Shown piece by piece: positions 3,041 through 4,511 of a DNA stretch of 34,916 nt. The notes beneath the pieces are model-generated. The model saw only the letters and a list, made by a program, of their open reading frames with translations. It ran no database searches and had not been told where the DNA came from. The stretch is taken from positions 1 through 34,916 of the IMG/VR virus record IMGVR_UViG_3300027686_000017; one strand, written 5' to 3'. Numbering within the stretch: position 1 is the stretch's first letter; every line of letters begins with the position of its first letter. This stretch comes from a virus. The translations under genes and the position numbers were made by a program.

Positions 3041-3060
3041 TTGTTAAGTTTTGTTAAGTT
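3041..3060. repeat. Exact tandem 10-bp repeat before the small terminase gene
   Basis: The plus strand carries two head-to-tail copies of TTGTTAAGTT, filling the short gap between the SSB-like gene and the small terminase start at 3036. It could be a protein-binding site, part of a packaging start site or chance AT-rich repetition. Only the repeat itself is certain. Confidence 0.6.
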
Positions 3061-3398
3061 TAAAAATCATCATCATCAGGAAAATCTCTACCCTTATCAC
3101 CCATAAATGGTTCGTTAACTGCTGATTCTACAGCATTTGCTACAAAAGGCAACTCAACCTTACCTGTAAGCATTTTGTTTCCTGTGCTTGTTACATACAA
3201 TTCATCTGTATATTGTTTTGTAACATCATCCCAAGTATTTCTAAATCTAAAAGCTATTTCTAAGTCTTTACCATCTACATTTATATAGGCTTTTAGAATA
3301 GGTTTCTTTGTTGCTTGTATAGCTTCAACACCTTTTTTGCTAAATAATCCTTGTGCAATAAAAATAGTTGATGTGTTTGGTTTTGCTTCGTATGCCAT
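3060..3398 (-). CDS. Probable ssDNA-binding protein (acidic C-terminal tail)
   Basis: A 112-residue protein whose body has alternating hydrophobic and charged stretches compatible with a beta-barrel (LKAYINVDGKDLEIAFRFRN; DELYVTSTGNKMLTGKVELP) and which ends in a strongly acidic tail with a terminal phenylalanine, DFPDDDDF. Bacterial SSB ends in a DDDIPF-type tip, and T7 gp2.5 ends in an acidic tail with a final Phe; both recruit partner enzymes through it. The neighbourhood (annealing protein upstream) also suits an SSB role. There is no clear family signature, so the function is inferred from the tail, size and context. It starts in a TAATG overlap with the gene at 3398-3781. Confidence 0.45.
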   Translation of the reverse strand: MAYEAKPNTSTIFIAQGLFSKKGVEAIQATKKPILKAYINVDGKDLEIAFRFRNTWDDVTKQYTDELYVTSTGNKMLTGKVELPFVANAVESAVNEPFMGDKGRDFPDDDDF

Positions 3399-3781
3399 TA
3401 TTTTTTACTCCTAATTTTTGATAATAATGAGTAGCTTTTTGTTACTAAACTACCCAATTGTTCTACTGTAATTGTATTAGTGCCATCTGACCGAATTGAT
3501 GCAGGTAGCCATCCTTTTTTAGTAGACATTCTGTTAATAGCTTTTGATGTAAAAACCACTCCATGAAACGCCTGACAATGAGCAACACTGTAACCTTTAA
3601 TAGTTGACCATTTTAGTATGTCTTTATCATTGGTTGTCCACCCTCTCATACTTTGAGCGTGTGCAACAGTCCAACCTAAGTCATTCTTTAATCTGAGTAT
3701 CTCTATTCTGTCTGTAAATCTGTCTTTATAAGCAAGTGAAGGGTCGCTTAGATGTTCTATAAATTGCTCATAAGTAATCAT
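3398..3781 (-). CDS. Hypothetical protein with two 27-residue 'VAHxQ' repeats
   Basis: A 127-residue protein not matched to a named family. Residues 36-62 and 63-89 are two imperfect 27-residue repeats sharing the core G(W/Y)(T/S)VAHxQ, followed by a variable stretch and a lysine. The repeats look like a helix-turn unit and somewhat resemble ankyrin-like 'G-x-T-x-x-H' phrasing, but two units are too few to decide. The C-terminus is basic (SKIRSKK). It starts after a 133-bp structured leader with a good ribosome-binding site (GGAGAG) and overlaps the downstream SSB-like gene by one base. Function unknown. Confidence 0.7.
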   Translation of the reverse strand: MITYEQFIEHLSDPSLAYKDRFTDRIEILRLKNDLGWTVAHAQSMRGWTTNDKDILKWSTIKGYSVAHCQAFHGVVFTSKAINRMSTKKGWLPASIRSDGTNTITVEQLGSLVTKSYSLLSKIRSKK

Positions 3782-3914
3782 TCACTCTCCAAATTAGTAG
3801 TTACTTAGGGTAACAACTCCCCGATACGACATCTCTGCCAACCTAACGAGGGAAAGGTTTAGGGAATGAAAGCCCTAGTAAAACCCCCGAATACTGTTTC
3901 GGCTACAGTAATTC
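3782..3914 (-). ncRNA. Candidate structured leader RNA
   Basis: A 133-base gene-free stretch between the annealing-protein stop and the next start, about 44% GC by my count and clearly richer than its surroundings. Reading the minus strand I see four hairpins: ACTGT/ACAGT (3893-3909), TAGGG/CCCTA (3860-3877, extendable by GGTT/AACC), GGCA-GAGA-TGTC with a GNRA loop (3828-3839), and GTTAC/GTAAC (3800-3814). A motif recurs twice: GTATTCGGGG (3885-3894) and GTATCGGGG (3819-3827). This is compatible with a regulatory leader or a processed small RNA. I cannot assign it to a known riboswitch class. Confidence 0.45.
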
Positions 3915-4511
3915 TTAAATTGTTGCTACAGGATTTTCAAATAATCTAGCGTGGTAATCCTGTACTTGTACTAAGCCTTTATCACTGGCTTCTTCATAAA
4001 TATTTGTAGCCAGCTCTATATCTCCATTAGCTTTTGCTATATCTAAATCATCTTTCATTTGTACAACTTTAGCACCATATTGTTGTGCTGGTGTTAAGGG
4101 TTTATTATACGCACTTGGTTCTTTTTTAGGTTTTGAATTAGAAAAATCTTCTGCTTCACATTCCGAGTAGTGTCCTAGCGTGTAAAAACCACAATTTTTT
4201 AACAGACTGCGACTTAATGCTCTTTTTTGAGCCATCTCCAATAAATAGAAATTGTTACAGCTCTTGCCTATCTTTGGACTGTTCATAGCTGAAGCAAACA
4301 TTGTAATAGGCGGTTTACCTTCAAGGGTAGTAATACACTCCATAGCACAATAAGTTTCAGTACATGCAATAATTTTATACTCTACCTTAACTTTAGACTT
4401 AGCTTCAATCTTCTCAATGCCCTCTCTCTTAATAATTGTGTAGTGAGCATGTGGAAACATATCTGTTTTTTCCAAGCCATATTTTAAATACAAATCTTTT
4501 AATACACTCAT
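3915..4511 (-). CDS. Probable single-strand annealing (ERF/Sak-type) recombination protein
   Basis: A 198-residue protein. The N-terminal half is beta-rich (KVKVEYKIIACTETYCAMECITT), followed by a helix with YLLEMAQKRALSRSLLKNCGFY (about residues 89-110), which resembles the 'EMAxTRAxGRAL' signature of ERF and related phage annealing proteins. A charged linker (SNSKPKKEPS) then leads to a short helical tail. Such proteins anneal complementary strands during phage recombination and replication. The ATGA overlap with the winged-helix gene and proximity to nuclease and SSB-like genes support a recombination role. The family match is from memory of the signature only, so confidence is moderate. 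Confidence 0.5.
   Translation of the reverse strand: MSVLKDLYLKYGLEKTDMFPHAHYTIIKREGIEKIEAKSKVKVEYKIIACTETYCAMECITTLEGKPPITMFASAMNSPKIGKSCNNFYLLEMAQKRALSRSLLKNCGFYTLGHYSECEAEDFSNSKPKKEPSAYNKPLTPAQQYGAKVVQMKDDLDIAKANGDIELATNIYEEASDKGLVQVQDYHARLFENPVATI

Follow-up and report, generated by a model that had tools for sequence, protein, structure and literature searches.

Autogenous control of a single-stranded-DNA-binding protein (SSB) through an mRNA pseudoknot is the textbook case from phage T4. In T4 and RB69, the gene 32 operator consists of a pseudoknot followed by an A/U-rich initiation region (PMC535899). The RNA analysed here has in common with these operators that an mRNA pseudoknot is found just 5' of a phage ssb initiation region. 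However, the T4 operator is a pseudoknot of about 28 nt whose sequence is poorly conserved and which is followed by ssb itself, whereas the present RNA is 101-126 nt long across its copies, combines four helices (P1-P4) with a loop-to-linker pseudoknot (PK1) and near-invariant bases, and often has one or two coupled genes between itself and ssb. SSB binding is putative in the present case.

The sole published motif found to combine pseudoknots with ssb genes is STAXI (RF01728), likewise a pseudoknotted RNA often located near ssb and DNA-handling genes (PMC2864571). STAXI consists of a small pseudoknot repeated two or three times in tandem and is known from Enterobacteriales, whereas the present RNA is a single non-repeated fold. 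Membership in this family was rejected based on the lack of tandem copies, on a repeat that resolves into two different elements and on the STAXI covariance model, which did not match the gap described below or its relatives in records L040 and L074. The put RNA of phage HK022 is an autonomous cis-acting phage RNA as well, specifically, a pair of stem-loops spanning about 70 nt close to early promoters (PMC9378689), while a long-range helix and a pseudoknot are found here in a 101-126 nt fold in mid-operon, and membership was again rejected. Other structured RNAs of phages or marine metagenomes, namely c4 antisense, manA and wcaG (PMC2864571), show no sequence or model match to the present RNA and differ in their downstream genes. 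Searches of an open-access library of papers revealed no description of this element.

Intergenic gap and its setting

The window, i.e. the whole stretch of DNA analysed, is an IMG/VR virus record of 34,916 bases in which nearly all genes are encoded on the minus strand. An earlier note, made from the letters of the window, had drawn attention to a GC-richer leader of about 44% GC reaching from an operon-internal stop codon to a ribosome-binding site. The coordinates are exact: read on the minus strand, the gap spans positions 3782-3914 (133 bp) and is delimited by the stop codon of a 198-aa open reading frame and the ATG of a 127-aa open reading frame, the latter being preceded by a Shine-Dalgarno sequence (Table 1). 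The GC content of the gap is 44.4% compared with 35.1% for the window, and only 2.6% of 133-nt stretches are equally GC-rich. On the minus strand, replication and recombination genes encoding NinB, a DUF968/HNH protein, a winged-helix protein and the 198-aa protein are located 5' of the gap, followed on its 3' side by genes for the 127-aa protein, a 112-aa protein and a 116-aa protein in the place of terS, and then by the TerL and portal genes. The closest annotated relatives of TerL (window:1490-2689) are found in Nitratiruptor phages NrS-1 to NrS-3 (48-49% identity).

When folded as a single sequence, the gap is no better than its shuffles (z of +0.22 for the minus and -0.58 for the plus strand). 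The evidence for structure is therefore comparative and comes from covariation in relatives. ARAGORN identified 0 tRNA or tmRNA genes in the window. A search of the region against Rfam, which the earlier note had proposed, came back empty even at relaxed thresholds: at the gathering score, Rfam 15 yielded 0 matches in the window, and relaxed searches gave no match with an E of up to 10 for the gap or for L040 and chance-level matches only in L074 and six loci.

Table 1 Features of the gap and of the adjoining genes (window positions).
Feature	Position	Strand	Basis or remark
SSB-like gene, 112 aa, acidic C-terminal tip	3060..3398	-	family aligned in A6
127-aa gene, no assigned function	3398..3781	-	stop overlaps ssb-like start
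Shine-Dalgarno GGAGAG of 127-aa gene	3785..3790	-	sequence
Conserved structured RNA, whole element	3794..3914	-	27 records, 18 distinct sequences aligned by structure
P4 hairpin, TTGTTAC CCTAA GTAACTA	3798..3820	-	covariation at pairs 2-7
PK1 3' side, TCGG	3821..3824	-	partner 3899-3902
Optional GNRA hairpin, GGCA GAGA TGTC	3828..3839	-	alignment A3
TTAGG in near-invariant TCGTTAGGT, candidate partner of P4 loop CCTAA (PK2)	3842..3846	-	
Helix P3 3' strand, CCCTCG	3847..3852	-	partner 3884-3889
J3, pyrimidine-rich, AACCTTT in window, Shine-Dalgarno-complementary	3853..3859	-	
P2 hairpin, TAGGG CTTTCATT CCCTA	3860..3877	-	all five pairs covary
Helix P3 5' strand, CGGGGG	3884..3889	-	partner 3847-3852
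P1 hairpin, TACTGTA / AACAGTA, loop GCCGA	3892..3910	-	covariation and RNAalifold
PK1 5' side, CCGA within P1 loop	3899..3902	-	partner 3821-3824
198-aa gene, upstream of RNA	3915..4511	-	ERF/Sak-type annealing protein gene there in relatives

Copies, fold and covariation

Records were scanned with the 127-aa protein, the upstream protein, the SSB-like protein and DNA patterns, with the pattern scans being run without reference to any gene and the others being protein-anchored. The structured RNA was found in 27 records, the window and 26 others, all of them uncultured phage contigs. Pairing was derived from the 18 distinct sequences, which were aligned by structural segments, and a covariance model (R1) was built from 14 sequences. 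This model scores the window copy at 101.7 bits. It separates true copies, which reach at least 31 bits (E about 1e-4), from chance matches, the highest of which scores 15 bits. Model building had not drawn on L074-L078, which are the most distant copies. All five occur where predicted, immediately 5' of an ssb-like gene, and four of them (L074-L077) share only 37-50% identity with group-1 copies. Matches to loose patterns in L048, L049 and L053 and a weak match in L014 (15 bits) were discarded as chance. No copy was detected by pattern scan of 84,980 cellular genomes, by protein scan of cellular genome contigs or by cmsearch of the regions 5' of seven phage genes annotated as ssb, and BLAST against named phage records returned chance matches only.

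Read 5' to 3' on the minus strand, the element starts with AAU and hairpin P1, followed by the 5' strand of helix P3 (CGGGGN), hairpin P2 and the segment J3. The 3' strand of P3 (NCCUCG), a near-invariant UUAGGU, a linker and the 3' side of PK1 come next. The element is completed by GG or CG and hairpin P4 with a CCUAA or CGUAA loop, and the next start codon always lies 8-31 nt further 3'. Near-invariant bases comprise AAUUA, UCGUUAGGU and GAUU. P1 consists of 5-7 pairs in most copies and carries the 4-nt PK1 segment in its loop, the P2 loop in group 1 includes TCATT, and J3 reads TATCTCC in most relatives.

Comparative sequence evidence confirms that the observation is real: on the minus strand, which is the coding strand of the operon, the RNA can form P1-P4 and the pseudoknot PK1, all of which are conserved. 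In alignment A3 (14 sequences, 34 pairs), 94.7% of cells are paired and 18 of the 34 pairs show two-sided changes, compared with 8.2 in shuffles and 2-6 when the structure is slid along the alignment. Standard pairs occupy 595 of 617 counted pair cells in the 18-sequence alignment, a count that leans towards the structure due to the alignment being made by hand and that is not a count of events given that many copies are related. RNAalifold recovers P1-P4 with no structure given. Three to five standard pair types are observed at each of pairs 3-7 of P1, while P3 covaries at its fourth (GC/UA/UG) and sixth (UA/GC/GU/UG) pairs. For PK1, pairing is kept through five states (CCCA/UGGG, CCGA/UCGG, CGCA/UGCG, CGCU/AGCG and GACU/AGUC), with three of four pairs retained in L076 and L077 (GACA/AGUC). 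Only 2 of 720 permutations of these types pair equally well, and PK1 alone passes the shuffle control for both cells and score in A3, where L052 is misaligned. The earlier note had proposed a structured regulatory element between operon genes and had named a lack of covariation across relatives as the finding that would refute it; the covariation observed supports this proposal well.

Individual parts of that proposal fared differently. The four hairpins described there resolve into P1, P2 and P4, together with the long-range helix P3 and the pseudoknot. The hairpin with a GAGA tetraloop exists as well, but as an optional insertion into the linker confined to the subgroup of the window, L003 and L004. 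Two copies of the motif GTAT(T)CGGGG are indeed present on the minus strand (GTATTCGGGG at 3885-3894 and GTATCGGGG at 3819-3827). Their interpretation as a tandem-type element does not hold, however: the first copy is composed of the end of P1 and helix P3 and is nearly fixed, whereas the second is the 3' side of PK1, which reads TGGG, TGCG, AGCG or AGTC in relatives. The two are unrelated elements whose resemblance is a coincidence and is not kept in relatives.

Further pairings were considered around P4. The two bases just 5' of P4 and their counterparts in the P4 loop are GG/CC and change to CG/CG in group 2, which suggests that they form an H-type pseudoknot around P4, based on a single change between the two groups. 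Pairing of UUAGG with the P4 loop CCUAA (PK2) is plausible but unproven, as its bases, near-invariant in group 1 and with one pair broken in group 2, vary too little to lend it covariation support. A fifth stem, UCUCC/GGGGA, is absent from the window and group 2 and was dropped.

Across all counted cells, G-U outnumbers A-C by 49 to 1, and the minus strand is therefore the RNA strand. The same ratio, together with the third pair of P3 being G-U in 18 of 18 sequences, argues against a function at the DNA level as a cos/pac site, an origin or a single-stranded DNA hairpin. Such a function would be in line with the position upstream of terS in the window, and single-stranded DNA was also weighed by the STAXI authors for their motif near ssb genes (PMC2864571). 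In L052, on the other hand, the neighbours of the RNA are recombination and replication genes, and we regard a DNA element as extremely improbable.

Neighbouring genes

An SSB-like gene is located 3' of the RNA in all 27 records. It follows directly in nine of them (L016, L022, L050, L052 and L074-L078), and is separated from the RNA by the 127-aa gene in 17; in L007, a Mom gene and, after it, the 127-aa gene intervene. As all three arrangements reach ssb, the first downstream gene varies while ssb is constant. A leader belonging to the 127-aa gene only was rejected, L016, L022, L052 and L074-L078 having no such gene before ssb. Wherever both genes could be read, the 127-aa stop and the ssb start overlap or abut (ATGA or TAATG; 14 nt in L040). 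With the ssb-like gene being next to the RNA or overlapping its preceding gene in every record read, and with PK1 covarying, the RNA shares with T4 gene 32-type operators a pseudoknot 5' of the ssb initiation region. The inserted gene of L007 (L007:3911-4540) belongs to the Mom family of DNA modification proteins (Pfam Mom, 4.3e-35). The 127-aa protein has no match in Pfam, PHROGs or phage records and shows an internal repeat-like pattern in the window (GWTVAHAQSMRGWTT... GYSVAHCQAFHG).

The name SSB-like is based on several lines of evidence. The L052 protein matches the PHROG SSB family (4.3e-11) as well as SSBs of named phages, and the L040 and L052 proteins can be aligned at 8e-10. In an hhalign comparison, the family profile A5 matched the SSB set A7 with an E of 3e-6. 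Nearly all family members end in an acidic DDIPF-like tip, which is typical of SSB. Structure prediction yielded two low-confidence models (pLDDT 49), which leave the SSB fold unconfirmed.

Where the upstream side is present, recombination genes are located 5' of the RNA. Upstream genes tested encode an ERF-type (L026) or Sak-type (L052) annealing protein, with a winged-helix gene between the Sak-type gene and the RNA in L052, while the 198-aa protein of the window has no family match. In other phages (L089 and L090), erf lies right beside ssb and leaves no space for the RNA, which means that such control does not extend to every ssb.

This gene setting also bears on other possible functions. 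A cis-acting antiterminator comparable to HK022 put, allowing polymerase to read into downstream genes, would be in keeping with an RNA that folds autonomously and that, in the window, stands between early genes and the terS/terL/portal genes. In L052, however, the RNA is followed by ssb and a replication-initiation-like gene rather than by late genes, and the put fold is unlike this RNA; we strongly doubt this function. Alternatively, the RNA could be a processing, stability or self-cleaving element parting the recombination-gene message from the ssb part. Small ribozymes are common in phages, the fold is pseudoknotted, and the RNA is indifferent to the identity of the next gene, as seen in L007, L016 and L052. 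Nevertheless, no Rfam ribozyme matched up to E 10, no catalytic core was recognised and the strict link to ssb would be left unexplained, making a processing element quite unlikely. A trans-acting small RNA expressed from the gap would have room for a promoter in L011, L024, L026 and L016, which have about 100 bases upstream, but in most records, the window included, only a few bases lie between the upstream stop and the beginning of the RNA. Matches resembling promoters are at chance level, no terminator is found 3' of it, and a start codon is always close by. We give a trans-acting role very little credence.

Proposed control of the ssb unit

We hypothesize that the RNA acts in cis as a leader through which translation of the ssb unit is controlled, perhaps with SSB regulating its own synthesis, and on balance consider this role probable. 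It is inferred from the constant position of the RNA and from the coupling of the genes behind it: the fold immediately precedes the ribosome-binding site of the leading gene in a set whose last member is the SSB-like gene. The fold would control translation initiation at the first start codon 3' of the RNA, and the ssb-like gene would be translated by coupling to the 127-aa gene, as proposed from the overlap of its start with the 127-aa stop. By analogy with T4, the ligand may be a phage protein, most plausibly SSB itself, an assignment that we make tentatively. Once single-stranded DNA is saturated, free SSB would occupy the pseudoknot together with the neighbouring A/U-rich initiation region and thereby shut off translation, like gp32 in T4. 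An operator of the gene 32 type would be expected to have an unstructured A/U-rich region with UUAAA/UAAA repeats over the Shine-Dalgarno sequence. The leaders are 75% A+T and contain zero to three UAAA each, in a genome that is itself A/T-rich.

A small-molecule riboswitch, in which a metabolite such as a nucleotide would gate translation of the ssb unit, could account for the compact fold with its long-range pseudoknot and near-invariant bases and for an anti-Shine-Dalgarno-like segment with a start codon just 3' of the RNA. It is nonetheless unlikely, with the RNA being confined to one phage gene setting, no copy being located beside metabolic or transport genes and none being present in the cellular genomes covered by the pattern scan. 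We favour a protein operator over a metabolite switch in view of ssb being the only constant partner and of the gp32 precedent in T4 and RB69. Compared with the T4 pseudoknot, however, the RNA is larger and has unpaired bases that are near-invariant, possibly an indication of a different ligand. A new ligand-binding or catalytic RNA class tying phage SSB output to the replication state seems rather improbable.

Within the proposed SSB-responsive leader, the pyrimidine stretch of J3 would be a candidate switching arm that masks the Shine-Dalgarno sequence. The energy of the J3-Shine-Dalgarno duplex is better than that of shuffled J3 (0 of 300 as good). However, the pairing is strongly predicted in some copies only, and a test for coevolution showed a leader's own J3 to perform no better than that of another leader (P 0.31). 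Since L003 and L004 have no recognisable Shine-Dalgarno sequence, sequestration cannot be general, and masking may form one arm of the switch.

The RNA represents a family that is absent from Rfam 15 and whose pseudoknot is supported by compensatory changes in aligned sequences, and it is associated with a single function, that of the phage single-stranded-DNA-binding protein. If the proposed role is true, it would constitute a second, unrelated and better conserved SSB operator in another phage group, and comparison of its many natural variants would allow a direct test of how SSB recognises its own message.

Two observations concern the surroundings of the RNA and of the SSB-like gene. About 100 extra bases between the upstream gene and the RNA in L011 (L011:5780-5875) and L016 (L016:560-720) contain inverted repeats (GTTTAGCAGTTT...AAACTGTAAAC; GTAGGTTT...AAACCTAC) and may be a promoter or terminator region. 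In L065 (L065:3800-4000) and L069 (L069:1-200), the SSB-like gene is found behind a conserved leader of another kind, roughly 170 nt in length (AAGTGCGTRGACT...), the 3' end of which forms a terminator-like hairpin and a run of seven or eight T immediately 5' of the start codon. The stem of this hairpin is changed between the two while the loop is kept (GGGATC TACGATAA GATCCC and GGGGAGT TACGATAAT ACTCCCC), and the leader is possibly a transcription attenuator of ssb.
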